This document shows positions 21,584-44,405 of a stretch of 64,000 bases of DNA, in pieces. Where the stretch lies: positions 22,779,581 through 22,843,580 of the forward strand of contig NC_092191.1 of assembly GCF_043641665.1 (NCBI RefSeq), read 5' to 3'. The position numbers and the translations under genes are program-made. The notes under the pieces are model-generated. The model saw nothing but the letters and a program-made list of their open reading frames with translations, ran no database searches and was not told the origin of the DNA. The stretch comes from Enoplosus armatus (taxonomy: Eukaryota > Chordata > Actinopteri > Centrarchiformes > Enoplosidae). Position 1 is the first letter of the stretch, and every line of letters begins with the position of its first letter.

Positions 21584-23619
21584 CTGCAGAGTGACAAGGA
21601 GGATACAACGTGTTCAATGATCAAAAGGATAAAGGAACGAACGTGTATGTTGGTATCACCAACATGATCCTGGATCTTCCTAATTGCCATTTCTCAGAAC
21701 TCATTTCAGCCACAGAGGAGCTCCGAAAGATTTGAAAAGAATACTGAAAACATAAACGGACCGGAGGGTAGGCAATATCCCTCTTAACGACGCTAAGTGC
21801 GTGCAAAGTAACAACAAAAACTGATTTACTCTGAGCAAGAAAGGTTTTTTCATGCACTCAGCGCTGCCACTGGTAGCCAGAAGCGATGTTACAATTTGAC
21901 AGCAGCCTCCTTTGTAAATCTTCCAACCACCAGTGGCAGCGAGTTCAAGTTTATTTGTCACATATAATCATACAGGTTACAAAAATCAAAGTGAAATGTA
22001 TGTCCGCAAGGTCCCATACTTGTGCAATAATAAAGACTGAGTGTAAAATAGAATAAGAATAGAAATAAGTCATCAATAAATTATATAATAATAATAATAT
22101 AATAATAATAATAATAAATGTCTTTCAGGCAAGGTAGAGCACTGGCTTTTGTACGTTCAGTCGAAGCAACCCCTCATTGCAGGGCCTTGATTTGACATGA
22201 TTTGTACTGACATTAATGGAGGAAACTTTTTTTTGGTCCCAGTAAAATGTTTTCTTTGTTACTTTGCACCTTACATACAGTAAGTAGATTATGGTAGAAG
22301 GAGGAATTGTAAAACCAACAATACAATAAGATCTCAATCCAACATCTCCGATGTGGGGTTGAACAGGAATGCTGTGTTCTACAGTTGCCAACAGCAGCAG
22401 TGACCTAGCTGTGTGTCGTGCACATCTCTGCTCAGAGATCAAAAGACGAGGAAGGGAAAACTCCAGATTGCGTTTGAGATTGCACTGATTGTGGGAAGAG
22501 CCAGTGTCACTGAATCACGATAGATAGACAGATGGTACTTTGAGCAATCACAGCAATCTTGTGAAAGGGGATGCTGAAAATCATCAGATTTCTAGCAATG
22601 GATAAAAAGACAAATGACATGCCAAGGGAAATCCCCGAAGCGGTGAAAAGCAGCTCCAGGGCGTAGGTTGGAGTCAATAAGTAATGAGGACACCATAAGC
22701 AAGTCTACCCTAAAGAAACCCTCAAAGGCTTTGGCAGATAATGCCCCCTAATAAATTGATTAATCAATCAATCAGACGGAACAAAAGTTTGGGGGTGAGA
22801 GGCAAAATTAACAACAAGAAGTTCCGCGAAAGAATAAATGAATGCAAAGAATGCCAAATGGCCCGATCAGGAGGCGAGGAGATGAAAGTGGACTGTATGG
22901 ATGGCAGATATGAAGAGCCTGGTAGTGGTGACATATGTACTGTGTGTGTGTCTGTGTGTGCATGGCTGGTGACAGCCAATGGTCTACCTCAGTCGTTTCT
23001 AAATTCACAAACCAAACCTGACAGCTCCTACTTCTTGCCCACAGCTGAGGGCTGAAATAACAGGACGTGGATGGCTCTGCAGCCTGAGTCAGCTGGAGAT
23101 GTACGCTGAATGAATGTTCACACTTGACAGCAAGCGCTTTGGTCAAAGAATAATAATTATCTTAAGCAGTCTCTATTTTTTGTTTTTTATGTAGTGGTAG
23201 GCTTGAATCATAGACTGATAACAGAAATGGTGAAATGATCTCAACTGGTATTTTTTTTTTTTGTTTGGGGTGAGAAGGTGCTCTACATTGATTGTGGTCT
23301 GGGGCTTCAATAACTCTAAATAATTTAGTTTTTTTTTTTTTACTGGATTTCATAGTTTGCTGTGAAGTGGAAGAACTGAAATTCCAGTGGGTGTAATTGG
23401 TTGCAGTGCGTATCATAAAAACATTTTCATTTTCTGAACATCTGGTGTTGGGTGGATATTTACTAGCTAATATTACACAGCAGGCAGCAGCAACAGCGAG
23501 GATGTTTGGGTGCAAAGGAAGAACTGGGCAGTCAGCATGAGCAATGTTATGTACGCCGTGCATGAACAGATGGCAGAAGAAAATGTCAGGAATGACCACT
23601 TGGCACTGAAGACGACAGC

Positions 23620-24020
23620 GCAATGCTCACAATGACAATGCTAACATGCTAATAGTTAGCAGGGAAAGTTTACAGCCTAAATGCATAAAAATGTGACTGA
23701 ATAATAGCACTAGATGAAAGTCAAGGGATCACCAAAGTTATTACAATTCATTGTGTGCGTCTAGTTTAGCTTTGCTGTAGATTCATAACTACATATAAAT
23801 GTGTGTTCTGGGGTCAGTGTGGAGGCGCTAATCTTCATCTGTATACCAAATGTTATGCCAATTGATCGAGTAGATGTTGACATACTGGTTAAGTAAGAGA
23901 CTGAGATGAAAAGTCAGATGATCATCAAAGTCATTAGGATTTATCTTGAAAAACTATTGGATGGATTGCAGTCTGGACAAAAGTGATGGGCTGCCTGTCC
24001 GACATCGCCATCCCTAGACC
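23620..24020 (-). repeat. Dispersed repeat, copy 1 (class unknown)
   Basis: Contains GATGAAAGTCAAGGGATCAC followed by CAAAGTTATT, ACTATTGGATGGATTG, and a trailing CCGACATCGCCATCCCTAGA. Equivalent wording recurs in the window at 24870-25250, 30000-30400 and 60780-60975. GCTAACATGCTAA at about 23640 and GTTAACATG...TTAGCATGC near 30370 flank two of the copies. I recognise the wording as common in fish genomes but cannot assign a class. Confidence 0.7.
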
Positions 24021-24869
24021 CCAAAAACAGTCGAATATGACATAAACTCATATCCCTTGAGTAATCATTAGGGGTTTAGGTACAAGTATTAGTTGGCTTG
24101 CGTCAATGCTAAAACAAAATGAGAAAAACAAATGTTATCCAAGACTCAGAGGAGTTAATTCAGCCATTGTTTGTCAGTTGCGTCAAGCAGCACTTCAATC
24201 AAATACAAGGGTCAGTTGAGACAGTGAAGCAAGCATCAACAGGCTGACTGTGTGAGCCATATCATTTTCTGAGAGGGGGCTGTCTGGCGTGTGCGGAGGT
24301 ACTTGTGCATCCACGTGCTTGCCTTGAAGTGTCAGCGTCTCAAAATAAATAAAACTGCTCTTGTTTGTGGCCCCCAGACTGTTTTACATTTATATTGAAA
24401 TTCCCAGCTCCCTACTGTCCTTCTCCCAGTATCTGCTCAACACTGACCTCCCAGGCCTTTAATCTGTTCTCAGATCCTTTAACTAGTGTGTCTGGATGAC
24501 ACCTAGCGTGGAATCCCAATCCCTTCCAGATACATCTGTGTAATTACTCTGATCTTTTGTGTGGAACTCATCAGAATTCCTCCCCCTACTCTGTGTCAAT
24601 GTCAGATTGGTTTTTCCCTTACTCTGGTGGTAATAAATGCCAAGCAGACTCTACGGAAAGAGAAAAGAACAACACACGCGCATCAACAAGAAACAAATGG
24701 GTAATAAACAAGGCTAGGTAGACAAGGATGCTAGTGCCATGGACAATATAATGCACTTGGGTCCCCTGACCATCGTACAGCATTTATTCTCTTTTTTCTT
24801 TCCCGTTTTTCAGACATTGGGAAACTCGTGTTTTTTTAGCCATGGTAGCAGCGTCGATGGCCATGCTGG

Positions 24870-25250
24870 TCCATCAACCATTCACGGTCCCCAGAGGGTG
24901 AATCCCAATGACTTTGGCTGTAATCGCCACCATGAGCTTGACATATTTGCTTTTGAGTGAAACATCTCAACAACTACTGTATGGATTGCTACACAATTTG
25001 GTGCGGACATTCATGCCCTCCAGAGGATGAATCCCAATGACTTCGGCGATCCCCCGGCGATTCGCTTGTCAAAGTTTTCAGTTATCCAGTGAAACATCTA
25101 GTGGATGGAGTGGCACCAATTTTTGCGCAGACATTCGTGGTTCCCAGACAATGTATCCCAATGACTTTGGTGATCCTCAGACTTTTCATTTAGTGCCACT
25201 CGCTGATCCAATTCAGTTACTTTGAAGCTCAAATCCGTGGGGCGGGAGGA
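24870..25250 (+). repeat. Dispersed repeat, copy 2, with internal tandem units
   Basis: Three successive units begin with versions of CAGAGGATGAATCCCAATGA at about 24890, 25021 and 25146, spacing about 131 and 125 bp. Each continues toward a TATGGATTG/AGTGGATGG word and GACATTC. The unit arrangement means the repeat is internally tandem. Opposite orientation to the copies at 23620 and 60780. Confidence 0.7.
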
Positions 25251-26505
25251 CTGTTTGCTTTGCACTGTTAAATGATGCCACACACTGCTTAAGGGAGGGG
25301 GGCCATGTATTTGCTTAACAACTGGCTTTGTAATGAGCAAACACACTAAACAATACAAGTTTAAGAAATGAAGCATGTTGAACTCAAATAGTCATGTCAT
25401 TACTTAAACAAGTTATAATCTGAGATTAAGTGATTCAATTGAATTTTTTTTTTATTCTTTATATGCTAAAATGCAGACACATTTGCTAAATCCTGGATCC
25501 ACTTTATTCATTTATATATAATTTTTCAGATTTAAATGTATCCCAGTACAGTTAATCATGTATCAAATTGTTTTCTCTACTCTTATTTCCAGCCTGATAA
25601 AACAATGAACTGGTCCCAATGCTTCAAAGGTGACATAAATATATTGATTTAATGATATGATAAATCTATGGCAACAGTACGCGGACTCACTTACAATATC
25701 GGGATTATTGTTTACAACAACTCTAGCATACAACAAAAAAAAAATCATATGGACTGGCTTTCCCCGCCTGTAAATACCATTTCCATGAAATTCAAGAAAC
25801 TCCTTCACCAAACAGTGATGCAGAGCAAAGAGTAAGGAGACAAATCAGAGCCTGCTCTCCTCTCAGCCACAAGACAAGCAGCAGCCCAAAGAGGCTGGAC
25901 ATCCATCACAGTTATGACTATCTTGGTAGTGCTGACCTGCAGTCATTGCATTGCTACGAATAGCGAGTCTCCACTCTCTGTGATTAAGGGCCTTCTGGGG
26001 GCCGTACAAAGCCGGGTGCTGCATGTAGCCATGTTGGATGCTCAGGCTGATTAATAGTTAACGGGGGCCCTTAGAGCTGAGCGGGAGTGCCTGCGATGAG
26101 TTAGCATGGCATATGTAAGGGAAATGAAAGCAGTGCCGTTGGATTCTAATGTCTCCCTGTTTGCCACTGTAGCCTCACCTAGCGTCGAATCAATTGGCTC
26201 AGCAAAATAGCGTGTCAGGAAGTTGCATTTCAAATCAGGCAGTGAATCATCCAGAAACACACACACAAACAAACTGATATGATGCATATACAGTGGGGCA
26301 AACAAGTATTTAGTCAGCCACCAATTGTGCAAGTTCTCCCACTTAAAAGATGAGAGAGGTCTCCAATTTTCATCATAGGTATACCTCAACTATGAGAGAC
26401 AAAATGAGAAAATAAAATCCAGAAAATCACATTGTCTGATTTTTAAAGAATTTATTTGCAAGTTATGGTGGAAAATAAGTATTTGGTCAATAACAAAAGT
26501 TCATC

Positions 26506-27541
26506 TCAATACTTTGTTATATACCCTTTGTTGACAATGACAGAGGTAAAACGTTTTCTGTAAGTCTTCACAAGGTTTTCACACACTGTTGCTGGTATTT
26601 TGGCCCATTCCTCCATGCAGATCCCCTCTAGAGCAGTGATGTTTTGGGGCTGTCGCTGGGCAACACAGACTTTCAACTCCCTCCAAAGAGGGAGTTGAAA
26701 GTCTATGGGGTTGAGATCTGGAGACTGGCTAGGCCACTCCAGGACCTTGAAATGCTTCTTATGAAGCCACTCCTTCGTTGCCCGGGCGGTGTGTTTGGGA
26801 TCATTGTCATGCTGAAAGACCCAGCCACGTTTCACCTTCAATGCCCTTGCTGATGGAAGGAGGTTTTCACTCAAAATATCACGATACATGGCCCCATTCA
26901 TTCTTTCCTTTACACGGATCAGTCGTCCTGGTCCCTTTGCAGAAAAACAGCCCCAAAGCATGATGTTTCCACCCCCATGCTTCACAGTAGGTATGGTGTT
27001 CTTTGGATGCAACTCAGCATTCTTTCTCCTCCAAACACGACAAGTTGAGTTTTTACCAAAAAGTTCTATTTTGGTTTCATCTGACCATATGACATTCTCC
27101 CAATCCTCTTCTGGATCATCCAAATGCTCTCTAGCAAACTTCAGACGGGCCTGGACATGTACTGGCTTAAGCAGGGGGACACGTCTGGCACTGCAGGATT
27201 TGAGTCCCTGGCGGCGTAGTGTGTTACTGATGGTAGCCTTTGTTACTTTGGTCCCAGCTCTCTGCAGGTCATTCACTAGGTCCCCCCGTGTGGTTCTGGG
27301 ATTTTTGCTCACCGTTCTCGTGATCATTTTGACCCCACGGGGTGAGATCTTGCGTGGAGCCCCAGATCGAGGGAGATTATCAGTGGTCTTGTATGTCTTC
27401 CATTTTCTAATAATTGCTCCCATAGTTGATTTCTTCACACCAAGCTGCTTACCTATTGCAGATTCAGTCTTCCCAGCCTGGTGCAGGTCTACAATTTTGT
27501 TTCTGGTGTCAGCTCTTTGACAGCTCTTTGGTCTTGGCCAT
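26506..27541 (-). pseudogene. Tc1-family transposase, frameshifted and lacking the catalytic Glu
   Basis: The original ATG is at 27541-27539 and starts MAKTKELSK, but a short repeated AGCTCTTT word (27511-27518 and 27522-27529) adds 4 bases and brings a TGA at 27511-27509. The rest is open from 27438: helix-turn-helix DNA-binding part ([20 protein letters not shown]), SDETKIE with the first Asp, and QHDNDPKHT with the second. At the third site family members have NPIENLWRE; here it reads [12 protein letters not shown] because of a templated hairpin insertion at 26668-26703, so the DDE Glu is gone. The span of 1,036 nt is 345 codons plus one base, agreeing with one uncorrected frameshift. It cannot make active enzyme. 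Confidence 0.94.
26668..26703. repeat. Perfect 16-bp hairpin inside the Tc1 transposase
   Basis: GACTTTCAACTCCCTC at 26668-26683 is exactly reverse complementary to 26688-26703, with a 4-nt CAAA loop. Relative to the family sequence the left arm looks like a copy of the right arm (GAGGGAGTTGAAAGTC, which encodes the normal REL-KV part) replacing the two codons for Glu-Asn. Net gain is 9 bases, so the frame continues. This is the signature of a replication template switch, not of a structural RNA element. Confidence 0.9.
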
Positions 27542-28140
27542 AGTGGAGTTTGGAGTCTGACTGTTTGAGGTTGTGGACAGGTGTCTTTTATACTGATAAA
27601 GAGTTCAAACAGGTGCCATTAATACAGGTAACGAGTGGAGGACAGAGGAGCCTCTTAAAGAAGAAGTTACAGGTCTGTGAGAGCCAGAAATCTTGCTTGT
27701 TTGTAGGTGACCAAATACTTATTTTACAGAGGAATTTGCCAATTAATTCATTAAAAAGCCTACAATGTGATTTCCTGGATTCTTTCCCCCCATTCTGTCT
27801 CTCATAGTTGAAGTGTACCTATGATGAAAATGACAGGCCTCTCTCATCTTTTTAAGTGGGAGAACTTGCACAATTGGTGGCTGAATACTTTTTTGCCCCA
27901 CTGTACATGTATATCTTGAAGGCAGAGACCAACATTTCTTATGCAAGTCCACACAAAAACTCTAGTATTGAGGTCACAGATGGGTCGAAGTAATGGATAC
28001 AACACCAGCCGCAAACTGGCTCAAACAATAGTACAATGGTGTGGTCAAAAGTGCTTGTTTCACTGTTGGAGCTGAAGTGATTAATTATTTGTAGTGCTCG
28101 CCCATACAGATGAAGTGCAAATCAAATCGCAGTGCCAACC

Positions 28141-28612
28141 ATCGTTAGTTGGTACCTGAGCCGTAGGGCAAAGCTTTCGATTTACCACTTGGTCTACATC
28201 CCAACCCTAACCTATGGTCATGAACTTTGGGTAGTGACCGAAAGAATGAGATTGTGGATATAAGCAGCCGAAATGGGTTTCCTCCATAGGGTGGCTGGGC
28301 TCAGCCTTAAAGATGAGGTGAGGAGCTCAGTCATACGAAAGGAGCCAGTTGAGGTGGTTCGGGCATCTGATCAGGATGGCTCCTGGGCGCCTTCCTTTGG
28401 AGGTCTTTCAGGCACATCCAACTGGTAGGAGACCCCGGGGTAGACCCAGAACACTCTGGAGGGACTACATATCTCATCTGGCCTGGGAACGCCTCAGGAT
28501 CCCCCAGGAGGAGCTGCAAAACGTTGCTAGGATGAGGCACTTCTGGACTACCTTGCTTAGCCTGCTGCCACTGCGAACCAGCCCCGGATAAGCAGAAAGA
28601 AATGGACGGACG
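28141..28612 (+). pseudogene. Non-LTR retrotransposon 3' end, 5'-truncated
   Basis: The plus strand first reads YHLVYIPTLTYGHELWVVTE, then has an in-frame TAA after RMRLWI, continues AAEMGFLHRVAGLSLKDEVR, and shifts frame near 28350 into RWFGHLIRMAPGRLPLEVFQ, RPRGRPRTLWRDYISHLAWE and LLSLLPLRTSPG. This is the well-known C-terminal tail of a fish LINE ORF2. The 3' end GATAAGCAGAAAGAAATGG followed by GACGGACGG resembles the usual short tandem tail. With a stop and at least one deletion it is dead. Confidence 0.85.
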
Positions 28613-29756
28613 GCACACAGTGAGGTGCAGACCAGCATGAACTGGAGTAAAGGTGACCCTGATGAAGGCAGGATAGCCAAAAATGTTTGGTGAATAAAGC
28701 ATGGTATAGAAAAGAGTTGTTTGACGTATTTTCATTTTCATTAGCCTGGTAAGTGGCAATAATGGTCAAAATATTCCAAATTTTGCGATGAGTGGACCCA
28801 ACAGTAAAAGGGTTTTGTAGGCAAACCCATAAGTCAGTTGTACCATGTGTCAGGACATGGAATCCTTGTGAAATCCCTGTATCTTAGATTGCTTTTTGTT
28901 GCCGGTGATATGTATCATACACTGGGCAAAAACCTATCAGCTAGAGAGAGAATAAATGAAGGAGAACGTAACATTGGATATTACGCATACGACAGCACCG
29001 ATAAATTAAAGATTTGATTGCGTTGTGGTATCGATGCTTAGACGTTCTGGTGGCTCAGTGACATTATGAGCAAATCATGTACCCACAGCAACTGAAGTTC
29101 TAATCTATGGCTTTTCTAAACATGCGTGTTATGTCTCTCTTTACTGCGTACTGTCTAATAAAAATATAGATGCAGTTTATATCCTTTTAGACTTCCTTGC
29201 TCACCTGTACGAGGACAACAACATGTCATCTTGGACACCGCACGGCCAAATAGTTCAAACCTGGAGACGGCACTGATAATGAAACCACAGAAAATCCCGC
29301 ACTGGTATCAAATGTCAGAGAAATTCTACTTAACCCCCAAACCATGTTGTCCACTCACGACTCCTGCCTACACACACTAGCTATCAAATCCCTTCAACTG
29401 GATGGATACAATGTAAAATACCTCTGCTCAGCTATTCCTCCTCTAAGTGGAACAATACCAATCATTTCAGTGCAGCTCATAATTCAGCTCCTGGGAACCA
29501 AGGTCCATTTCTAATGAGGCTGGCTGAGATGCATAGAGGCATTGCTGGTGTAGAATGAGCACACTTGATAATTACCCTTAATTGGCTGGTGCTGCAGTTG
29601 CGCGTGGGTGTGTGTGCATGATCATACAAGAGGAGAGGCAACACTCCAATCACCACTGATGAAAGTTTGTTCATAAAGCATCTCGGTGTTTCCTAACACA
29701 CTGCTGTAATCACTCAAGGAAGCCCAAGAAACTGCTACATTTAAAATGAGATGGTC

Positions 29757-29905
29757 TCCATCGGGAGCAACTTAGGGTTCAGTGTCTTGCGCACTTCAGC
29801 ATGTCGGGGGGGGGTGCTAACCACAGCGTCACCATGGCGCCAAAAAGGTGTCCACGTGTGACAGTGCTAACCACAGCGTCACCATGGCGCCAAAAATGTG
29901 TCCAC
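29757..29905 (-). repeat. SINE fragment with tandem duplication of its head
   Basis: Wording CATCGGGAGCAACTTAGGGT and CAGTGTCTTGC matches the tail part of the SINE at 47981-48271, followed by its head (GTGCTAACCACAGCGTCACC). The 41-bp head piece is present twice at a 50-bp period (29815-29855 and 29865-29905), differing by one base. The B-box part is missing and a G run sits at the junction. Confidence 0.8.
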
Positions 29906-29999
29906 TCCGTGTCAAACCAAATTTAAAAAAAAAAAAAGCTCTTTTTAGCTCTATGGAGCCTTTTAGCCTCTTTTATCTCATTGTTTTGGTTTTACAGCA

Positions 30000-30400
30000 C
30001 ACAGTGTTCTTTGGTCCAGACCGAAATATTGGATGGATTGTTGAATTGACTGCCATGAACTTTTGTATAGACATTCATGGAGAATAGATCCCAATGACTT
30101 TGTGTTCCTCAGACTTTTCCTCGAGCGCCACCATGTTTTTGGTTTTGAGCAGAATGGCTGTTGAATGGATTGCCATGCCATTTTAAGACAGACATTCAGG
30201 TCCTCCTTAGGAAGAATCACGAAGACTTCGGTGATCCCCTGATTTTTCATCTTGCACCCTCATCAGGGCAAAATTTTACTTTGGTTTATGAACAAATAAC
30301 TACCTAGCTAGTTAGAATAAATGTTAGAATAAATAAGAGTAAATACCATACCTGTTAAACATTAGCACGTTAACATGTCATTGAGAGCATGTTAGCATGC
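30000..30400 (+). repeat. Dispersed repeat, copy 3 (class unknown)
   Basis: Contains ATTGGATGGATTG, AGACATTCATGGAG, GATCCCAATGACTT, CTCGAGCGCCACCATG and CTTCGGTGATCCCCTGA, repeating with about a 130-bp internal period, and ends in AGCACGTTAACATG and TTAGCATGCTGAT. Same orientation as the copy at 24870-25250. Confidence 0.7.
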
Positions 30401-30927
30401 TGATATAAAAAATTAGAAGCGAATTTTAGAGGTGGCAAAGTCAATAGAAATACGTGAGTGGTGTGAATTTGCCCGGGTCGGTGCAAACTGGTGCCAAGAC
30501 ATGTCCACCTGAACCCAGTTTCCCCAGTTGACAATGTTTCAACTTGAGTTTGCAAATTTGCACTTCGTGAATATGCTTCATTAACATATAGAGCCAAGAG
30601 GACACTAGGAGAGGGACTAAAGGGAAACAAAAAGAATGAGTTTTTGCTAAGCACAAACACACAGGCACGCTACCACAGAAAGGAGCGGTGTGTCAATTGC
30701 TAGCTAGCTTACAGCTAACGTCTGTACAGCGCAGCTGGTACATTGGCTGTTTGGGGGGGGATTAACACAAATGGTCCAGTGGTCAAATTCGTGCGAGTAA
30801 GAAATTTGCTTCCCTTTCTGTCTCAACACACCTTTTAGTCTTATAAAAAGGTCCTGTTCAGCACATATCTTGGTCACATTTTTTAATAACCAAAAAATGC
30901 TTCTTTATGTTATGAGTTTGTTAAAAA

Positions 30928-30929
<2 letters not shown>

Positions 30930-30958
<29 letters not shown>
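30930..30958. repeat. (TA)n microsatellite
   Basis: About 14 TA units after a short A run. Confidence 0.95.
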
Positions 30959-30961
<3 letters not shown>

Positions 30962-33858
30962 CCAGCAAATCATTATTTCGATATTTTTTTTACTTTAAAA
31001 TATCGACATCAGTATCTAGATCTAGTATTAAAACAAACAAACAAGCTTCAATAAACCCCACTGTAGCCTACACCGGCCCAGCACCAAAACGGCAGACAAA
31101 GTTAGCGACTAAACGCGAAGAAACCGTTATATTTAGCAGCTAAATCTCCCCCCTCAAGGATCAATAAAGTATTTCTGATTCCGATTCTGATAAAGAACCA
31201 GATATTCATCTTAGTGGTCGGGGGAGACCAGAGCTAAAAGGAAAGTAAATATTGGACTTAGATTCATTAGGTAGCAAGAAACAAGAGACCAAATGAATAC
31301 TAATGTTGCTCAATGTCTGCTAGATATGCAAATATACAACTGTTTTGTAATGTTAACAACTTTACAAGGCAATGTCAAGACTGCACAGCATCTAAATTCT
31401 TAAATTATTATTAAATACACGCAAGTGGATTTGTTGTGACCACTCTAGCAGATTGTAGAGTAACATATCCAACCCAGTGCTGCCATAACAAACCCATTGA
31501 GACAACAGGATATGACAGTCATTGGTCTTCATAAAACCCATACGCTCCACACACCCACTTGTTTACTGTAATGGTCAATAAAAGCAAAGCCAGAAAACAT
31601 TAAATGGGTTACCACCGAGTCTCAACTCATGGGTGAACAGGAGAGCGGGTGCGTGGGCTGGTGGCTGCTACGGGGGACGGGTGTCTGTTGACTTACCAAG
31701 GGGAAAAAGGCGTTGAACATGCGGTTCAAACCGAGTGGGTGGCCAATACTCTGACTCAAGCTCATGGCTGGACAATGTCAGGTCTTCCTGAGCCCTCTAG
31801 GGCAACGGAACAGAGGAGAGAGTAGCTGAAATAGTAAGACTGTGACATGTCTCCGCCAACTCACCATCTGCCTCAGTGGACACTGTAGATAATGTGCATC
31901 GCAGCAAGACTATGTGGAACAACCTGGGAAAAAAAACGTGGCCTGAAGCTCTGTGCCATTTCAAAGGACGGAAGGAACAGTGGCTGCATTTTTGTGCGCA
32001 AAGAGTCCCTTTATAAACCAAACTACTCAAGTTAGTTTTGCGTTGACATACTCTGTGTGGACATCTTAAGTGGGTTAGAATAAGTAGGAAAACTCAAGCT
32101 CTTAGAATAAAAAAAACAAAATCTGGCTCACTCCTATTTGAAACTGGTAACTGCGAACCAGAAAAATCATTCCTGTCATTTAAGTTTTTAAGTATCTGCA
32201 CAAAACATTTATGTGAAAGACACTATGGGTTCTTGCTTAGATGAGAAACCTTTCCATTTTATTCTTCAACCTCGTCATTTGAGTCGAGTAGAAACAGACC
32301 ATTTCAAAACCTTTAGATTAGTACAAAGAATGAATATTCATTTGGGATCATAATGAATTTTTCCTACATTAGAAGAAGTCTACTACATAAAGAGGAAGAG
32401 GAAATATTAAAGTAACTGTCAGCAGAAACTAAATTACAATGTGTCCAACACTTGATCTCGATGAAAAACGCCATGAGGTCAAGGAAGAGGCGAAGGAGAA
32501 TTCATAAGGACTTAGGAAAAGACAACCGCGGTGCTGAGAGAATCTGACTGCACTTCCAATAGGCAATTGGAATTATGCGACGGCGGATGTTATTGACGTG
32601 GGACTGCCGTGGCCGCTTTTTAATGTTGCTGCCGCAAGGAACTGTAGGACGGCATCATCTCCTTTCCTTTCGTTAAGGATGGCCCGGTATGCTAAAGGAG
32701 ATAGAAAAAAAAAAGGAAGCACTGAAGAACTTTTCCTTAGCATTTAGAGAATTCCACTCTCTCTGATCATGGCTTCCTTTATACTTCCGGGTCATTTCAC
32801 TCAGTTAGGAACCTCCTTCAACAAATAAAGACTATTCGACCGCAACTCCTGTTTCAAATGTGGTGATTATGGCACTAAAATGGAAACCACAATAGGACAC
32901 CCAGTAATGATTTTCGGGAAGGTAAAATACCATACGTTTTGGTAAAAAAAAAAATAGAGAAAGCTGCATCAACTACTCCCAAAAACTGTCTATCTGTTCA
33001 GAAATTGTTTGAAAATTGAAAAGATGCATAGGCAAGAGATTGGGACTTTTCCCAACGCTTGCAAAGTAACCAACATACGCCATACACCGCTGATCTTGTT
33101 ATGTTATTGGCTAAAATGTCTGCAAGTGATACCAACCAGATGCTGCAACTGGCCAGCTTTACAAAAAGGGAAGAGTAAGGTTGTCTGTATCAAGTTCTTG
33201 CTCGTTTTAGAGAGGTTGCCTTGCTTTACTGACTTGTAACTTGTTCGTTGGACTCTCACGGTGAAAAGGGTTCAAACGTTACAGTGATTCAGCTTGTATC
33301 TGCCCTCTAATACGACAAAAAAACTTACGGGGTTGAGTTTCACATGCTTTCCCTGTTACAAAACATGTAATTGTTGTCGTAACATTGAGATCTTACCATT
33401 GTGGTGGTGTAAGGAATCACCCCAGGTGCCGTCCCCGTATGTTTGATCGGACCACCTCTCGACCTGTACTGAGGCCTCTACCCATTAACAGGTAAGCAGC
33501 TGAATATATATATCTCTTCTTAAGCTTGTCAGCACCCATAACTAGCAGGTAGTGACCTAAAGGAAGGGTCAGCCATGGAGGTTATGAGGACGGGAGCGTG
33601 AAGGAAAGAAGATAGTTGCAGTACTGTTGTTTTACCGACATCCTCAGATTCAGCTGCAGCGCTCTCGATTACCCCCGAGGTCAAGATAACGCTAAAACTA
33701 TAAACTACTGATCTGCCTGGGGATATTGAAAGTATGGTGGTGGCGGCAGGTGATGATGGTATTAAACCAGCCACAGTAAATCCTGGCTGAAATGCTGAAA
33801 TAGGTTTGTTACCTTTTTGTAAGTGCTGAATTAAGTTAGGTTGTCTTTATAGTGTTCA

Positions 33859-33862
<4 letters not shown>

Positions 33863-33895
<33 letters not shown>
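33863..33895. repeat. (GT)n microsatellite
   Basis: About 16 perfect GT units. Confidence 0.95.
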
Positions 33896-33898
<3 letters not shown>

Positions 33899-34894
33899 AC
33901 CCTAAGGAAGACGGGTATACCGTTCATACACATTGGTCGTGTTTTTAAAGCAACCAGCTTTTTAACTTTTGTACTTGAACAAAGCAGCGTGCTTCGGAAT
34001 CTTGTGGAATCCATTAATTTCTTGTGGATAGCTGGAACTGTATGCAACTGGGTAACTTTGCAGGAGAAGGGTGGGTCGCACATTTACACTCTAGAGGCAC
34101 AGGAGCACTAAGATTGCAAATGTGGCTGTGATCTGTTTGTTTAAAGCTCTTACGGAGTCAACATTAAAACAATAATTGTGACACCTGTCCAGCAGGTGAG
34201 AGTGAGTCATAGTGCTCGGAGAAATGAGCTGACTGGATCTGAAGCCTGTTGACATACATTAAGAACTGCAGTCCAACTGCGCTGACCTATGCTCAAATGC
34301 ATAAACTGGAAGGGAACGCAGTTTTCCTCATTTATTAAACTCAACAATTCAGAATGGAGCTGAGAGAAACTAACCATAAAAGTACCCACTGACGTAGATA
34401 GCAAAGGGTGTCGCACAGAGAAGTAGAATTAGGAAATGAAAAGGCAGGGAAAGTTAGATGGCAAGAGAGGAGCGTAGACAGCTGAGCAGGCATGGTGCGT
34501 TTATTTCGGAAGCCACTCTTTTAAAGATAAATATCGAAGTGCGTGCCCAGACCCCCCACATCTTTCCACTGCCTCTCTCTTTGTCCTCCACCCAGCCTCA
34601 ACCATGCTTTATTTCCCTACTGCCTCCCTATTGTTGCCCATTCTTCCTCCACTCCTCCCCTCTCTGCAGGTCTGCCAAAATAACAGCAGCTGATGATGAT
34701 GATGGGCTCGACTGAACTCGGAGCAGAGCGTGGCACGGTGGGGCTGAATTCACCTCCTTTTTGTCTTTTTCTCTTTTCCGCTGGCGCGCGGGTTGTTTAG
34801 GTGGTGGCTGTACGGGTGTGTGCGCTCAACCAGCCCCCAAAGCAGTGGGAGAGGAGGAGACAACAGTAAGCATGAGCAATGTCATTTCCCCCTC

Positions 34895-34940
34895 CCTCCT
34901 CCTCCTCCTCCTCCTCCTCCTCCTCCTCCTCCTCCTCCTC
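34895..34940. repeat. (TCC)n microsatellite
   Basis: About 15 TCC units, pyrimidine-only on the plus strand. It lies roughly 1 kb upstream of the candidate first exons of the tunar-like gene, in a locally GC-rich, polypyrimidine-rich stretch. Confidence 0.95.
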
Positions 34941-35299
34941 TCTCATTCTCCTTCATTGCCACAGCCATCAGGATCCGTCTTCCCTCTCTCGCCATCATTC
35001 TGCTTGGTTATGCAATGCACAGTCCTCCCATGGTGACTAACTGGTGTTGGAGACCTACCGTAACACTGCTGTCACTGGCGGTAGATGCAGATCCATAAAT
35101 GCCATAGCAACCGTCTGGCGCTCCGGCTGCCTTTCTACAGACGTCTGCTCCATGGGATTTTACAGCTTTTCCTCCTCTTCTGGAATATCACCTGCCAGAC
35201 TCGACTAATTCAGGGAACCTGCCTGTTCTTAGAGACACCATCAGCTGATCCTACTAATATAATAACGCACCGTGTTGGCAGGCGGGCTTCAGTGATGAG

Positions 35300-35900
35300 C
35301 AAGAGGCTTTTTTGAAAAAAGGCACTAATCGCACTGTTCCCCCACAAGAGTTCCGAAGCGAGCAGGAGGGACGCCACAGCACGAGGGGGTGTGTAGATCT
35401 ACTGATGAGATGGGGAGGGGGGCGGAGGAGTTGTGTGGAGCAGTTTAGGCAAAGCGGTGACGGGGAACTCAAGAGAGGGAGCAGACGAGGAGGATGAGAA
35501 GAACAATGGGGAGGCGGGATGGGGCAAATGGGGAGGGGGTTTCTCCTCGCCACCTAAAAAGAGGCTGCAAGCTCTTTAGCAGCAGCAGCGATGCAAACCT
35601 GCTGATAAAAACCTGACTGCAAAGACTTGTGAGGGCAAACTTAATCAAAAGGGAAGTTGGGGGGGGGGGTGGGTTTTTTTTTGTGTGAACCTGACAGGTG
35701 GCGCTATAGACTGGAGGAGTAAAGAAGTGACAAAAGGAGGTTTTCACTGGAAGCGCAGCCGAGCACCGCAAAGCCGCCGCGACACCGCTGCCTTCTACTC
35801 CTCTTCTCCGTCACTTTGTCGGTCGCTCACAGGCACCGGGACTGTGGCTCCACAGCCGCTCACTCCCACCCCCCACCCCCCCCCCCCCTTTCTCCCCCAG
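35300..35900 (+). promoter_or_regulatory. tunar: Candidate promoter / 5' region of the tunar-like gene
   Basis: A locally GC-rich stretch with CpG-containing words (for example AAAGCCGCCGCGACACCGCT at 35771-35790) in an otherwise AT-rich intron, directly upstream of the candidate spliced exon that leads to the microprotein ORF. No TATA box at a convincing distance is seen. This is an inference from composition and position only; the transcription start cannot be placed by eye. Confidence 0.35.
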
Positions 35901-35996
35901 GTCTCCACATGTAGCATGCCCTTAAAGCCACGGTTTTCCAGTGAGGATCCAAAAAGCATGCCGGATGACGTTTTCTTACACCTTAGACGCCTTAGG
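35901..35996 (+). other. tunar: Candidate 5' exon of the tunar-like transcript, carrying a uORF
   Basis: A strong polypyrimidine tract and ctcccccag end at 35900 and a donor (TTAGG followed by gtaagc) follows at 35997, framing a 96-nt exon; it could also be the end of a longer first exon. It has a minimal ATG-TAG at 35909-35914 and a longer uORF from ATG at 35916 (MPLKPRFSSEDPKS...) that reads open to the donor. Spliced to 36787 the uORF would continue ISVPLPG and stop at 36808-36810, giving 34 codons ending 15 nt before the main ATG. Splicing is predicted, not observed. Confidence 0.4.
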
Positions 35997-36786
35997 GTAA
36001 GCCACTTTTTCTTTATACCATCATTTTTATATTTGTCTGTCATTGCCTTATTTCTTGAATTAGAGTGAATTTAGTGACAACTATGCTGCATGTTGACATG
36101 AGTTGCGGGGACTGATGATTGTAGTTCCATTCCCAAATGAGCCCAAGCCAAGAATGACCCTGTTTACCTTTTTTGCTCACACATTTCTCTTGGAGACGAC
36201 ACCATCGCAAGCTCCTTGTCCTTACCTTCTAAGACTCCTCCACGGGGGAGGTGGGAATTATGCTTAGAATAACTACTTACAAGGACCTGGGGGTGGAGGG
36301 TGGTTAATCATTAAAGGCAAAAGAAAAGAGGTGGGCGCGTGCAAGGGGGCTCTAAATGGCAGCATTAAATCATGCTTATTTTGACATGGGGGGGGACGCC
36401 ATTGAGCATTACTGGTGGCAATTTAACAGTTTCATTGCAGATAATCCAAGGATGAGGCTGAGCGAGTGCTGGCGTCAAGCTCAATGTTGTCGAGGTGCTC
36501 GGCTTCAAGCTGTGGCAGGTCATAAACACTGGCGTTCACAGACTAATCTCCACTCCGCTCTATGTGGCCATTGTTTTGTTTGATTCACTGACTGATTTCT
36601 TTCTGAGCGGGGGGGGGGGGGGGGTACGTTGGTGCTTTGGGCTGGTAGATTAGCAGGCAGACGAGGTCAAAAGAAGTAACACTAAGCCTTGAAAGCAGCA
36701 TGTTAATTCAGACCAGGTTCTGTTGTTCCTTTCCATGCACGTGTGACAACTTCTGACACGGTCTCCATGATTTCCTTGTATTCCAG

Positions 36787-37720
36787 ATAAGTGTCCCCTT
36801 GCCAGGTTAGGTGAGCTTCAGGATCATGGGCACCACAGTAATCACCCTCGAGGACGTGCGGGCACTGGAGGTCAAGGAGGAGCAGGAGGAGTCCATCTTG
36901 GCCATGTTAGGCATCATTGGCACATTCCTTAACCTTTTTGTAATCGTTTTTGTTTACATCTACACTACACTGTGAAGCGCCAAAAGCAAAAGAGAAAGGT
37001 TTTCTAAAAAACCTGCCATCAGCTAAGACGAGAAAGGTTGGAGTGATCAGTAGGGAACGATTGAAAGTATAGAAAGCGATACATGTTGGAGAAAAGAAGT
37101 TTGACATGAGGAGGAAACTGGACACACTGGCTAAGGATGAAGACAAAGCCATATTGCCAAGTCACAGCCATGATCCCGGGAGATAACAAAGGGTTGGAAG
37201 ATGTGGCAGGAACAAGGATATGCTAGGACCTCTGTGAGCAGAGCCAGATGGACACTAGCAAGCCCCCAGCCAGGACTGACCCGCCTATGGCCTGACAGGA
37301 AATACAAACTGCCCTGATTTTCTTGGACTGCTGGACTCACTGGAAACATGAGCCAAACCAGACAGTCTTTTGGACAACACAATGTACTTAATTTTCAAGT
37401 TGGTGGAACTGTAATTGCTACTTGCCTGGAAGCGATTTTAAGCATCAGGATTAAAAGCAGAGAAAGAACTAAGAACTATGCTGGGAAGCTGCTCTGGAGA
37501 CACTGTTGGCCACCATATTCAATCATTCTTCAGGGCCAAAAATGTTATGGCTTCAGGGCTCCTGTCAAAGAGTACCTTTCTCCCCAGAAACGTGGCTCTG
37601 GACAAGCTCTGCGGTACTGTCGTCTCCTAAGATATCTGTTGTCTCAAAAATGCCCTCAACCCACAAATAATAACCAACAATAAACACAATTCTATTAAAG
37701 AAAAGATGTGCAACAACATT
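36787..37720 (+). other. tunar: Predicted terminal exon of the tunar-like (megamind / linc-birc6) transcript
   Basis: Acceptor ttccttgtattccag ends at 36786. The exon holds 39 nt of leader without ATG, the 49-codon ORF, and then about 700 nt of trailer. Poly(A) signal words AATAAA (37679-37684) and ATTAAA (37694-37699) suggest an end near 37.7 kb. Zebrafish megamind is known as linc-birc6 because it lies in a birc6 intron, and this is the same arrangement, antisense to birc6. The 111-codon ORF at 37348-37683 within the trailer is not recognisable and is treated as chance. Confidence 0.65.
36826..36975 (+). CDS. tunar: pTUNAR/BNLN-like single-pass membrane microprotein
   Basis: Forty-nine codons plus TGA. 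N-terminal 22 residues are hydrophilic and acidic (MGTTVITLEDVRALEVKEEQ, EE). Residues 23-49 read SILAMLGIIGTFLNLFVIVF then VYIYTTL, one predicted membrane span of about 22 residues ending at a short YTTL tail. From memory, mammalian pTUNAR (48 residues) has EESVLAMLGIIGTILNLIVI and ends FVYIYTTL; the match over the last 30 residues is nearly complete, while the N-terminus shares only VIT and acidity. The ATG has A at -3 and G at +4. Mammalian pTUNAR is an ER membrane protein reported to bind the SERCA2 calcium pump and affect calcium handling in neural and beta cells; the same role here is inference. The ORF falls below common annotation length cut-offs and the locus is often labelled non-coding. 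Confidence 0.88.
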   Translation: MGTTVITLEDVRALEVKEEQEESILAMLGIIGTFLNLFVIVFVYIYTTL

Positions 37721-39822
37721 ATTATCTTGTTGAGAATGAATTTCAAAATAACTCTGAACTTTGAAGTATGAGGATCATCACAGGGGTTACTTAATTACAT
37801 ATGCAGGTGTAAGCTATGACTGGGTTAGAAATAGTCAGGCTTCTCAGAACCCGATTAGGATTCAAAAAGCATCTTTATGGCTGCATGTTCGTAATCACAA
37901 GAACAGTTCCCCTCTGCTGGCTGATGCGTGCTACATCCCAACTGAAAGCCACAGACCGTTTTCTCTTGCCGCTTGAGCTTTACAGGCTTATTGACTGCTC
38001 TTGTCGTCTAAAGACACGAGTGGGAAAAAAAGAAGTGAGGGAAATCAGAGTGGCAAACGTCTTCGGTACGATCCAACAGCGTAAGCCAGGGAGAAGAAGT
38101 GCACGATTGGCTCCTGTAATTGCAATGATGATCACTATTGGTAGCACTCCACCTTGCAAATCCACGGGGAAAGAGTGGTAATGAATGAAGGTGGTGCTGT
38201 GGCTTTTTTGGCTTTCACCTTGCACGGACTCCAATAATGTCGTGATAGGGGGAAATCCTTTAAGCAAGCTCGTATGAGTTTGTATACAGAACTCCTTTAC
38301 TGTCAAAACCTCTCTTTCTTTTCATCAGCCCAATTGCAAATGAAAGTTTGGAGGCCTACACTACTGAAACCCCACTGTTCACAGAGACTCACACTCAATT
38401 CAATGGTAGAGAGACTCCGTCAACACAGCAATGCAGGTACTGCCGTCAGTTCCACATGGTCTCCATTGTATCTGGAGTGATGAATCATTAGCAACTACCC
38501 TCCAACAGGCCAGTCATGTTCAGATTACCGTTCAACAGTGTATATACACGCCCACTCAACATGAGTGATGGACCAAAATAGCCATTACCTAAGTGGTGTT
38601 GCCTGTCGCCGCCTAGTTTAACTTCAAATCTCGTCAGTCTTGGATGAGTCAAAAGGGGAAAGGTGGTGTAGAACGGAAGTGGATGTAATGCCCCCCCCCC
38701 CCACACACACATCAGATCTGGAAACCATTTAGTGTCAAACAAAACACACATACAAGAAATCCGTTCTTCAATTAAGACAAATTAGTATTGTGGTGACATT
38801 CAAAGGTAATACCTCTCACTAATGGCTTGGCTTCCTGTGATGGAGTGCCAGGCAACGGCGAGAAACTGTAATATATCCCAAAAGGCTTTGCCAAGACACT
38901 GATGATTAATGTGGAGCAATGCGCTAGGCTGACAGGGCAGGCGGAGCTCTCAGGCAGTGGGGGGAATAGAAGCTAGAAATAAAGGTTTTGCGTGAAAGGT
39001 AAGACTAAGGGGCAAATAAAAGGTGTTCAGGGTAGTTAGGTGAAACGAGGATCCTTTAGGAGGGGATTTGTTCCATCTAGGGGTGGTAGGGTGATTTTAA
39101 TGTTGCACTGAATTTAACCCCATCTAGAGGGCACGTGTTTCATCCCCACCCCCACACCTATACTGTTGTTAATTACAGCCCCGAGTACTGTTAATTGTCA
39201 AGTTCCTTGGTTATCTTGCGTTTTAAAGTGGGTCAGAGTATTTGTGCGCAAAGAGCTCACTTACTGTTAATGAATTTATGCACAAGCTGGGAATATGCCA
39301 TGTCCTCTCACAGAAGACAGCCCGGGATGAAAACCAGTTTAAACCAAGTATATTTTGGCAAAATGCTTAAAAACAAACAAACAAATATTTCAGCCTCCGG
39401 AGCTCCACTGATTTGAAGAAGGCCGTGCTAAGGTACAAGACCAAGAATGAAGAGAAATGGGCTGGTCTTAAATGACCCTAGGCTAATGATGCTTAGTTTA
39501 ACTATATTGGTATAGTAATTCCCTCTAAAAGAGATAGATAGACAGATAGATGAGACAAATCAATATTAACTAATTGCTTTGATTCCATTTCAAATTGTCC
39601 AAGCTGCCTAAATTGATTTTTTTTGGCCACCAGGGGGCAAAAGAACTCCATAAGAAGCTGACATAAAGCTGTCATGGCCGAGCTGTTAGCAGGATGTTTA
39701 TACATCCAGCAGACACAGAGCAACATTAGTATTCATTTGGAGTCATGTTTGTGTCCTCCTGATGAACGTAAATCAAACATTCACTCTTCTTTTAGCTCTT
39801 TTTTTGGTCTCTTGAGAAAGAA

Positions 39823-39875
39823 TTTACAGTTTGGTTCTGTCCCACCCAAAGAGTCGGACAGAACCAAACTGTAAA
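39823..39875. repeat. Perfect 20-bp inverted repeat (hairpin) with 13-nt loop
   Basis: TTTACAGTTTGGTTCTGTCC at 39823-39842 is the exact reverse complement of 39856-39875, with the loop at 39843-39855. Flanking bases do not extend the stem. It lies just after a stretch with the CCACCAGGGGGCAA word of a dispersed repeat, so it may be part of a repeat or a template-switch scar rather than a microRNA precursor. Confidence 0.9.
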
Positions 39876-40409
39876 TGTGCCCTAAAACCCAAACTATGAG
39901 CTGAAAGAGGCTTAAAAAGCTCCAGAGAGCCGTGGAGTTGGTGACAATTCTCTGTGGTTTATTCACTTGGGAGTGTAGCCTTTCACATTGCATGTAGTCA
40001 TCGGATTCATTATTCATACAAAAATATTGATTAGTGGAACTTTTAAATAGGTTATAGATTGGCTACTGAGTTCTTCCCTACATAAAACTCATACAGTGCC
40101 CACCGGTAATGAGAATATTGTCAGTAAATTAAAAGACCATCATCCACACCTTTTCCATAGGATGGAAATCACAGCTCTGTATTGTAAGACACACACACAC
40201 ACATACTTTAGATTAAGGGTAAATGTGAGCTTGAGACTATTAAAAAAAAAATACATGTAGGACCTCAAAGTAAGATGTGGAAACTTCAAATATTTGCCAC
40301 TAAACAAAACTGTTGTTAGTCACAAAGATAAACTTAAAATGTAACCGTGGTTGCTGCCAAACTTGCGGCGTCTATAAAAAGCACTGCCTACTACCCCCAG
40401 TAGTAGTTG

Positions 40410-40410
<1 letters not shown>

Positions 40411-40457
<47 letters not shown>
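40411..40457. repeat. (CA)n microsatellite
   Basis: About 23 perfect CA units. Confidence 0.95.
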
Positions 40458-40460
<3 letters not shown>

Positions 40461-40939
40461 CTTCACAAAAGCTGATATAAGATGTCACAGTGTCAGTTCA
40501 CAGTTCCTCTAGGTCTGCAGCTGTGACAGTGATCAGAGAGTCCCAAAGCTGCACGGGGTACAGAGTGATAGGAGTCCTCTAAATATGGTGTGGCAATGGT
40601 ACAGTTTTTGTTGGGTTTTTTTTAAATCACTGGTGGGACACTTAATGTGCTGTCTTGTATGTTGGCAGTTTGGGGCTGAGGTTTGCTCTGTTAAAAGTCA
40701 GTTTGTGCTCAGCGAGGTGTTGTAACGCCTGACGTGGGATGTAAACACAGACCACAATAAAAAAGGAGGTCAACTCCTGCAGTGAATGAAACGGTTTACA
40801 GTAAATAAAAATGGAGTTTAAGTGAGGAGTGCATGTTTTCCTTATCGCGGTGACATCTGCACACCAACCTTCGTTTATGCAGAAACAGATTCCACTTCCC
40901 CACTTCCCTTCGTGTTCCCTGATTGCTCCGTTACACTGA

Positions 40940-41070
40940 GCCAGGTTTCGGTGAAGCGCGGGGCAGCTGATCTAGGAAAAGTCTGTGTCTGTGAGCAGCA
41001 GGTTCATCCATTTTGTGGGCAAGAGAGCGGACGTTCGCCACGTGTATTGATGGGGAGCGCAGTTCATAAA
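40940..41070 (-). pseudogene. Short LINE ORF2 N-terminal fragment
   Basis: On the minus strand the reading GIYELRSPSIHVANVRSLAH then KMDE resembles the opening of the apurinic endonuclease domain of fish LINE ORF2 proteins (typically ...LLANVRSLRNKMDEL). No further domain follows in frame, so only a small relic is present. The call rests on one motif. Confidence 0.5.
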
Positions 41071-43426
41071 TCCCCCACTGTTGCAGTGTCACCAGCGCTC
41101 CGGTGAAAAAGGTTTGACAGGTGAATTGTGGAATGCTCAAAAGTTCCTCTCTGGTGAAAAAAAACACCTAAAAAAAAATGGGGATGTGTGGAACACGTTG
41201 TCACACACGCTCGAATAAGCATAAGATCAATCACAGTTACACGAGTCCCTCCCTGATGCTATTACTCTTTCATCTTGCTGTGCGACGAATAGACTATCAT
41301 CTGTTTACCCATTACCAGCTCTTCTGACGTAAAGCAGGCGGGGGTGGGGGGTGGGGGCTCTCTCAGGTCTCCCAGTTCTTCCATTACAGGCTGCTCTTCT
41401 TGACATTTATTGACACCTCAGAGCTCTTGGGCAACTGGCTCTCATAAAGAAGGTGGTCCGGGAGCTTTCGTTTCACTGAATGCACCATGACTTCAATTAG
41501 CAATGTGCAACAGCCAGTTAGCACAGTACAATGCCATTTGTTATTAAGTCGAGTGGTTAAACGCGTAGATTTTGAAGGAAAATGTGTCATCATTAAGGCT
41601 ATGCCTCAACGGAGCATGTGGCGATACCTAATCAACCAAGGGGCTATAAGCTTCATATTTGCACGCACACACGCATGCAAGCGTGTGTCAGAGGCATTTA
41701 CCAGATAATGAGGAGCAATTACAACATTCACAATGCTTTTTATCAGCTGTTATTTAATTATGAGACCAGGGGCGCATTAGCACACACCAGTATGCTCACA
41801 GAGACACTCCTAGCACGCTGAAACAACTCCAGCAGCATTAGGCACACACACACACAAGAGGTGACACACACTCGGCTCTAACTGGCTCTGGGCTGATAAG
41901 CGGCAGCACACAATGGCAACGGGAGGAGGGCAGGAACACTGGTGCGGAAATCCGCATGTCTCATGTTCTGTCCAAACTCAACACAAAAAGGGGCCTGATC
42001 AAACAAAATGTAAACTGCTGGCAGTGAACTGTGTCTGGTTCTCTGGGTAATGACTGCATTAGGATTTCACTCCCTGGAGCTGCAACACTGCAGCTGTTGG
42101 TAGTTTTTTGGTAAAAAGCAAAAAGGCAGACAATAAAACGGAGGCAATTTGAACTTCACAATATGATGCAACCCAACACTACACCACCACAAACAACAAT
42201 TTCAAAATTATCTTTTAGTTCAGGCAACCTCTCAAAAACATTACATTATAATGCTTTCCGGGACTTTTTGTGATATATTCGATGACCTAGTGCTGAGCAA
42301 TAAAGCTAATTCATTTGTGAGAATCAGCATTACTCGAAAAAAGGCAAACATTGAGGTGAAATAAGAAGTAAGTTTACATAATGTTAAAGCCAAATCGCCA
42401 GTGCTATGCATTGTGGGACACAGTAGGCGATTATTTTTCAGAATCACTACGGCATCCTTTTGTTTGCATACCGGCATGCTACATGCTACATTTTGGCCAA
42501 ATCAGTGTGCACTGCTGGTATAGCGGGCGGTTTCGAATACAGCCACTGTCCACTTTTTTCGAAAAGCTTTCGTCTTTAGCATATGGCGGTGGTGAGATGG
42601 TGAGATGAGGCTGAAAGCTTTGGAAAAAGCCAATAAGTGGACCCTGTGTTAATGTTGTTTGTTTTATTTTACTGTTGTCTTTTTTACATTGGTGGGAGAA
42701 AATCCTACTGAAATTGTTAATTGCCTATAAGCTTGGAGAAAAAAACAACAACAACAACTAAAAGAAATGGCTATATTGCAGTTTGTTACTTTGTGTGAAA
42801 ACCGTCATCAAGTGCAGCCAGGCAAGAAAGGGTCAGCCCAGCACTAATAACCAGCAAGTCCCCGAGGAACCAATGCAGTATATATATACAAAGCAATGGA
42901 CTGACCTGACCTGAACAGTGCTAAAGCCCCACTGAGTGCCGAGAGCTCTGATGGAAGCTCATTGCTTGGCCAGAGGGTCTGACTGAAAAGGCAGGCTGAG
43001 GGAATGAGGGATCACCCGGCCATGTGCAAAACAAATCTGGTTGCAGCCTTACACCTACACAGCATTTAACCCACAGTGTTACACTGGAACAGCGTCATCT
43101 CATACTGCACCAAAGAGGACGAGCTCTGATAAAAATCCACATCCCTCTGAAGAAACATTTTAATCCACTCTGATTCCAATTTGCTGAACAGTGATTACAA
43201 CAAAAACTGCAACATGAGAGGAACTGATCAAAGTGGAAGAGCCAGTCTTTTCATTCTCGGGTACAAAAACAAAATCATGAGAGAGCCTGAACTCATTAAA
43301 CGTATACTACTGGGACATCAGTGCGATTTCAACAGTGAGACATACACAACCTCGGCTTCAGTCCAAGACGCAGTGGCTCCATCTGCTGTTTCATTTAGCA
43401 TCCACCATCTTAAAAACACACAGGAG

Positions 43427-43429
<3 letters not shown>

Positions 43430-43460
<31 letters not shown>
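43430..43460. repeat. (CA)n microsatellite
   Basis: About 15 CA units. Confidence 0.95.
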
Positions 43461-43464
<4 letters not shown>

Positions 43465-44233
43465 GCTTCCCCTATAACTCGCTGCAGTAACTCTAGACAT
43501 CAGTTATCACTGAGATCAAAGACCAAACCCACTATCTCAGCATCAAAGGCCACCCGCTGAGCAGAGGATCCACATGAAGTTCAGCGACAGACAAACATCA
43601 GCGGGTCGAATCATTTGATGGGTTGGGGGAGACGTTACAGACCAGAGGTTTTCAAAGTCTGACAGAAGTTACATTGGCAACATGTCTTATGGCCACATAA
43701 GTCAGTTTCCCATCATGATGCAAAGCAAAAACAATACTTTTGTCTATTTTCTCTGTTGACCATTCACTTTGTTTCATGATTTGTCCAAGACACCAGGGAC
43801 AATATGATGGGGGTTACATAACCAGAGAGGCTAGCTAAAGGCGTCACATATACCTTGAAATTCCAACTCTTGTTCTGTACGTGTCCTTAAAAGGAAGGCG
43901 AGCTGTATTAGGGTTCTTTGGTACTGAACGGGTCTACGTTTTACAGCAGCGGTCATTGTCACTGAGCGGACAATACATACTGCGAGGTAACTCCAACCAA
44001 TAACAATGGGACATTACACCCAGTCACGGGCTGTAATGCGGACTTGACTACTACTACTTGATCAGATTTGGAGACATGGACTTCCTAGGCTGTAAAATGT
44101 ATTACTTAAACAGTCAGGATACAGACTGGTAGCGGTTGCTGTTGTTCTCAGCCTTGCTAGATGGCGCAACACTACCTCTTTTACTTTGTGCCCTACTCTT
44201 TACTCATTTGTAGAAAAAGAACAGGGAGCCTAC

Positions 44234-44405
44234 CTGAGTCGTTGCGTAGGTAAGAGGACATGGCAGGGATGAGGCAGGACTGGCTCAGCAGCTCCTGCAG
44301 CACCGCTGGCAGTGCTGAGCTGTTGTGGGCTCGGCTGTCTGCCGAGGAGGGATCACCACTGTGGCAGCTGCTGGAGCCTGCTGGGTTGATGTAGCTTGCC
44401 AAGAC
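44234..44405 (-). CDS. birc6: birc6 exon 11 of window
   Basis: The exon is 172 nt, phase 0 start, ending with a G that joins TC of the next exon to make Val. It reads VLASYINPAGSSSCHSGDPS ... LPAVLQELLSQSCLIPAMSS, then YLRNDS. Acceptor cactag, donor gtaggc. The conserved LLSQSCLIPAMSSYLRNDS helix is diagnostic; the Ser/Gly-rich middle is the variable linker seen in mammals as SAVNGEAQSSHETRG. It marks the 5' side of the 22.6-kb intron. Confidence 0.97.

Follow-up and report, generated by a model that had tools for sequence, protein, structure and literature searches.

A TUNAR-family microprotein gene inside a birc6 intron of Enoplosus armatus, most likely a paralogue of TUNAR older than the fish-tetrapod split

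TUNAR has been reclassified as a coding gene (PMC6886504), and its mouse product, pTUNAR, is described as translated in brain, located in the endoplasmic reticulum (ER) and co-precipitating with SERCA2 (PMC8758570). In the same account, overexpression of pTUNAR led to faster calcium clearance, SERCA2 is described as activated, and Li et al. 2021, as cited there, reported binding to SERCA3 and reduced re-uptake in beta cells. The longer human TUNAR isoform (65 residues) was translated less than the 48-residue form, and that paper finds no apparent similarity of pTUNAR to the regulins or DWORF (PMC8758570). Zebrafish megamind, named for birc6, is expressed in brain and was once classed as a lincRNA (PMC3877055, PMC4466246). 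It is treated as TUNA in PMC6347452, where a study of a mutant is cited as having detected no function and as having found the morpholino defects to be non-specific. Mouse and human RNA are said to rescue megamind partially in PMC4047558, where the counterparts are called syntenic. Within the open-licence literature covered, we found no description of paralogy, or of two lineages, in the TUNAR family, and it is this paralogy that constitutes the novel point of the present analysis.

The DNA analysed here, termed the window, is a stretch of 64,000 nucleotides from the Enoplosus armatus genome (C19:22779581-22843580; assembly of 579.7 Mb). Its plus strand carries an ORF of 49 codons followed by a stop, whose ATG at 36826 has A at -3 and G at +4 and thus lies in an optimal Kozak context, as a preliminary description of this DNA had reported (Table 1). 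The translated protein matches the Pfam family TUNAR (PF21954) at E = 1.2e-18 and 67.1 bits (cut-off 27), and every one of the 65 matches that a search of 5.8 billion protein sequences returned at E <= 10 carries PF21954. Counted by eye, 25 of the 30 C-terminal residues are identical to those of macaque TUNAR (P0265), and the spacing EES-LAMLGIIGT-LNL-VI-FVYIYTTL could be confirmed in the same way, so that the near-equality of the last 30 residues with mammalian pTUNAR, which the preliminary description had proposed, holds. Chance is excluded as the source of this likeness; the ORF is real and is a new member of a family already known. Its reading as an ORF for a conserved TUNAR-family membrane microprotein is likewise supported, membrane insertion being predicted. 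The further statement that gene callers would drop such an ORF was only partly right, since public records do hold annotations for several relatives, in part as TUNAR-like. Two TUNAR-family peptides are misfiled in the database, namely P0132 as 'HHIP-like protein 1' (Callorhinchus) and P0242 as 'Tat-binding like 7' (Dissostichus eleginoides). Rfam, run over the window, gave no match at gathering scores.

On the minus strand of the window lies birc6, recognised by PF12356 (63112-63999) and by its ubiquitin-conjugating domain (12538-12885). Two birc6 pieces, combined into one query, match human BIRC6 structures (8atm_A, E = 9.5e-81). The exon on the 5' side of the intron ends with the human BIRC6 residues directly preceding VLDMARH, and the exon on its 3' side starts at VLDMARH, the join being read by eye against the 8atm_A alignment and the exon ends being taken from a simple splice-site script. 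Because these two exons join directly in human BIRC6, the ORF lies in a single birc6 intron, antisense to its host, as had been claimed. Tc1/mariner-type transposase ORFs (HTH_SB, HTH_Tnp_Tc3_2, DDE_3) were seen on the minus strand at 26509-27618 and 44935-45978, the former inside the same birc6 intron.

Table 1. Features of the TUNAR-family locus, its host intron and the tandem cluster on C8 (window positions unless a contig is named)
Feature	Position	Strand	Basis
Core ORF, TUNAR family, window lineage	36826..36975	+	translation, PF21954, protein matches, dN/dS 0.12 vs C23
Hydrophobic C-terminal segment, residues 25-49, predicted tail anchor	36898..36972	+	helix model; topology inferred
5' part of core exon, acceptor TTCCAG, 39 nt (13 codons) before ATG	36787..36825	+	sequence
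Alternative core-exon start after GTTAG	36811..36825	+	in frame (VSFRI); predicted 81-residue isoform
Predicted upstream coding exon, phase 0	35901..35996	+	acceptor CCCCCAG, donor GTAAGC
birc6 exon 5' of intron	44234..44405	-	read against human BIRC6 alignment
birc6 exon 3' of intron	21361..21583	-	read against human BIRC6 alignment
birc6 intron holding the TUNAR-family gene	21584..44233 (about 22.65 kb)	-	two flanking exons
Three tandem TUNAR-family ORFs (L008, L009)	C8:16903462-16914192	-	PF21954

Searching the assembly with the 49 residues pointed to six places: the window, one site each on C7 and C23, and three on C8. The C7 match was set aside as a simple repeat reading IYIYIY. All five own-genome copies contain PF21954, and TUNAR therefore forms a small family of genes; this assembly has five or more of them, three standing in tandem, which is relevant to any fish tunar knockout. 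The C23 gene (ATG at 13556677, 48 residues) is of the TUNAR type and matches PF21954 across the full profile (E = 2.3e-27). Its ATG lies 68 kb from a B2 bradykinin receptor-like gene (best PDB match, E = 7.6e-96) and, on the opposite side, about 92 kb from WDR20 (E = 5.2e-261), with GSKIP at 9.65 Mb on the same contig; these three genes are chr14q32 neighbours of human TUNAR. Another C23 ORF, at 13655411, which looked KCNK10-like, had no PDB match and was left out of the neighbour evidence. Four adjacent look-alike single-exon GPCR frames occupy C23:13624275-13638169, and the first one, the frame used as a query, matches the B2 bradykinin receptor.

The C8 trio scores 52.7, 40.3 and 36.7 bits against PF21954 (cut-off 27) and lies within 11 kb; a CCCH zinc-finger ORF (16888660) and an SRCR ORF (16936296) were seen in its surroundings. 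Database relatives of the first C8 type come from Xenopus, a salamander, a turtle, a gecko and the elephant shark. Two C8-type proteins of Onychostoma macrolepis (P0137 and P0155) have consecutive locus tags (G5714_018182 and _018181) and contigs of equal length, which points to an early origin of the tandem array within teleosts. PAP_central, looked at with a whole-genome-duplication origin (chr14q/chr2p) in mind, was found on C19 and C32; such an origin is a conjecture.

Upstream of the core ORF, a predicted exon reads MPLKPRFSSEDPKSMPDDVFLHLRRLR from an ATG at 35916. It is probably the counterpart of the upstream exon of the C23 gene, which lies at 13550470-13550541, reads MSVHYGKASPSSMSNAMLFLMLCK and is followed by the donor GTAGGT; its splicing in the window gene is predicted. 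The core exon of the C23 gene starts 39 nt (13 codons) before the ATG, the same spacing as in the C19 gene, and TUNAR proteins of other fishes in the database read across the same C23-type junction. Caranx P0015 matched the window's upstream exon at E = 2.1e-8 and Pampus P0016 at just E = 2.4, while 5 of the 7 protein queries left it unmatched, the strong match thus coming from one species only. The exon was chosen among five upstream candidates obtained with a looser exon pattern; the tight pattern gave a single match over both strands, which is no independent control because this pattern was composed after the exon had been seen. Since an in-frame TAG occupies 36808-36810, the predicted join 35996|36787 would yield a 34-codon upstream ORF (uORF). 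The alignments of both database models, P0016 and P0015, begin exactly at 36811. The upstream exon may set the output of the gene, with the older acceptor (36787) giving the uORF and the second acceptor (36811) the longer isoform.

For the phylogenetic analysis, a set of 269 proteins, the window protein included, was drawn from three protein searches, of which the one with the alignment of C8 copies gave 90 matches and the one with both main types contributed the best 120 of 407. Typing against exemplars distinguished 116 proteins of the TUNAR type, 65 of the window type, and 57, 22 and 9 of the C8 types, P0155 being the sole assignment of low margin. In a tree of 71 rows and 74 columns, (i) the window-type proteins form a clade of 21 rows (support 97/90) comprising teleosts, sturgeon, frogs, a newt and a snake, (ii) the C23 gene falls inside the TUNAR clade (91/90, below star), together with mammals, a bird, reptiles, a frog, gar, sturgeon and teleosts, and (iii) the 15 rows of the first C8 type need 4 changes, six of them forming one side (96/91) in a smaller tree of 38 rows. 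With 74 alignment columns, the deep forks are mostly weak. P0146 (Cirrhinus molitorella) is a divergent cyprinid protein that sits on a long branch within the TUNAR clade and may be an additional copy. AU tests on the 38-row tree rejected the grouping of the window protein with mammalian TUNAR (p-AU 2.9e-8), that of the ray-finned window type with tetrapod TUNAR (p = 0.0012), and a duplication confined to fish (p = 0.0018), p values which are to be read in the light of a short alignment and of groups picked after the first tree had been seen.

Both types occur together in Menidia menidia (P0021, P0171), in the snake Pituophis (P0219, P0260) and in Enoplosus armatus itself. Among the 65 window-type proteins, the species is given for 16: ray-finned fishes account for 10, amphibians for 5 and a snake for 1, with no mammal or bird among these 16 (the search with both main types being represented by the best 120 of 407 matches). 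In the tree the window gene stands apart from mammalian TUNAR, and its own surroundings are birc6, the BDKRB and WDR20 neighbours flanking the C23 copy. The orthology to mammalian TUNAR that the preliminary description had put forward is thus not borne out; given a TUNAR-type gene on C23 of the same genome, the separate window and TUNAR clades and the AU rejection, the most likely status of the window gene is that of a paralogue which arose before fishes and tetrapods parted.

The pattern of constraint is that of a protein. Between the window gene and its C23 paralogue, dN/dS is 0.12 over 34 codons (dS 1.29), a value which, being between paralogues and not orthologues, speaks of long-term constraint on the family and not on this branch alone; 14 of the 25 differences fall at third positions. 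Of eight dN/dS comparisons, six were finite (0.07 to 0.28) and two had saturated dS. Over residues 21-49, mean identity to the window protein is 95% for its 64 window-type relatives and 88% for the 116 TUNAR-type proteins, while over residues 1-20 the corresponding means are 73% and 29%. The N-terminal half, previously described as merely diverged, has therefore not simply decayed, since it is conserved within its own lineage. In the helix, F34 and V41 are found in none of the 116 TUNAR-type proteins. The regulin motif LFxxF (xLFxxF in PMC8758570) is present in 0 of 65 window-type, 3 of 116 TUNAR-type and 0 of 88 C8-type proteins; 63 of the 65 window-type proteins have LFxxxF instead.

A structural model built from a 40-row alignment consists of one helix, residues 8-48 (pTM 0.45), with block means of pLDDT of 53 and 68 before residue 21 and of 90, 96 and 94 from that residue onwards. 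It has the single C-terminal transmembrane helix of the family, as far as predicted membrane insertion goes; among solved structures, none matched the 49-residue protein at E <= 10. We propose that a plus-strand transcript of at least two exons is made and translated from the ATG at 36826, and that the product would be a tail-anchored membrane microprotein with a single helix and an acidic N-terminus, the latter presumably cytosolic because almost nothing follows the helix. By analogy with the studied paralogue pTUNAR, it would reside in the ER, bind SERCA and be expressed in neural tissue. The C-terminal helix likely docks on SERCA and so would modulate calcium re-uptake, SERCA being the most likely target because the helix is near-identical to that of pTUNAR.

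The reading that we favour, with somewhat better than even confidence, goes beyond the directly observed ORF, family, host intron, second TUNAR gene of the same genome and tree: the birc6-intron ORF would represent an old paralogous lineage, split off before ray-finned and lobe-finned fishes diverged, and encode a tail-anchored ER modulator of SERCA. A copy of the C23 gene that entered birc6 recently, as a duplicate or a retrocopy, would fit a small gene within the intron of another, yet the predicted upstream exon and intron, the presence of sturgeon, amphibians and a snake in the window lineage, and the rejection of a fish-only duplication leave it barely credible. Nearly as hard to sustain is a one-to-one orthologue of mammalian TUNAR that moved in one lineage and diverged in its N-terminal half alone: a separate TUNAR-type gene with chr14q32-type neighbours lies on C23, the AU test rejects the grouping, and the helix has residues specific to the window lineage. 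That very improbable view draws on the near-identity of the helix to that of TUNAR and on the equation of megamind (linc-birc6) with TUNAR in PMC5300904 and PMC6347452.

If the main role of the locus were that of an antisense or enhancer RNA for birc6, the peptide would be secondary; its position antisense in birc6 and the RNA roles published for TUNA (PMC4047558, PMC12019361) accord with this, but conservation follows the protein frame, in codon positions and dN/dS alike, and the frame is kept in 64 relatives, and we hold this explanation to be improbable. More weight, though still rather unlikely, is to be given to a protein whose main partner is something other than SERCA, either another membrane protein or none shared with pTUNAR. 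LFxxF is absent from every window-type protein and the SERCA partnership of this lineage is drawn from pTUNAR by analogy; against this, residues 21-49 retain their high mean identity to the TUNAR type, of which the mouse member binds SERCA2 (PMC8758570).

Should megamind be the gene in the birc6 intron, which its name suggests, then earlier works on megamind and TUNAR compared paralogues, and the paralogy bears on the dispute around linc-birc6, which is well known as an example of a conserved lincRNA. The word 'syntenic' in PMC4047558 speaks against a paralogue reading of megamind unless it was used loosely. Were the birc6-intron gene a coding paralogue, shared microprotein activity and redundancy between paralogues would offer a simple reading of the morphant rescue and of the silent mutant. 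Tentatively, and as a possibility rather than a probability, we suggest that the calcium-pump microproteins of jawed vertebrates comprise three or more ancient lineages, TUNAR being one of them, and that megamind belongs to a second, which fishes, amphibians and at least one snake have retained and for which the matches listed include no named mammal or bird; the morphant rescue would then reflect a paralogue standing in, and the silent mutant the cover given by tunar and the C8-type tandem cluster.

Among known systems, the regulins (phospholamban, sarcolipin, myoregulin, ELN, ALN) and DWORF resemble the window protein in being small, with one helix and SERCA as the proposed target, and differ from it in the LFxxF motif, which is replaced as counted above. 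The likeness to zebrafish megamind (linc-birc6) lies in the link with birc6 that the name of the latter conveys. The C8-type genes share PF21954 and the core GIIGT-LNL-V---VYIYT with the window gene, but have other N-termini and stand in a tandem cluster at another locus. Closest is mammalian TUNAR (pTUNAR, BNLN), with which the window gene has in common PF21954, the C-terminal residues identical to those of macaque and, through the C23 orthologue of TUNAR, the spacing from exon junction to ATG; it is set apart from it by a different N-terminal half, by F34, F38 and V41 in the helix, by its locus and by its separate clade.
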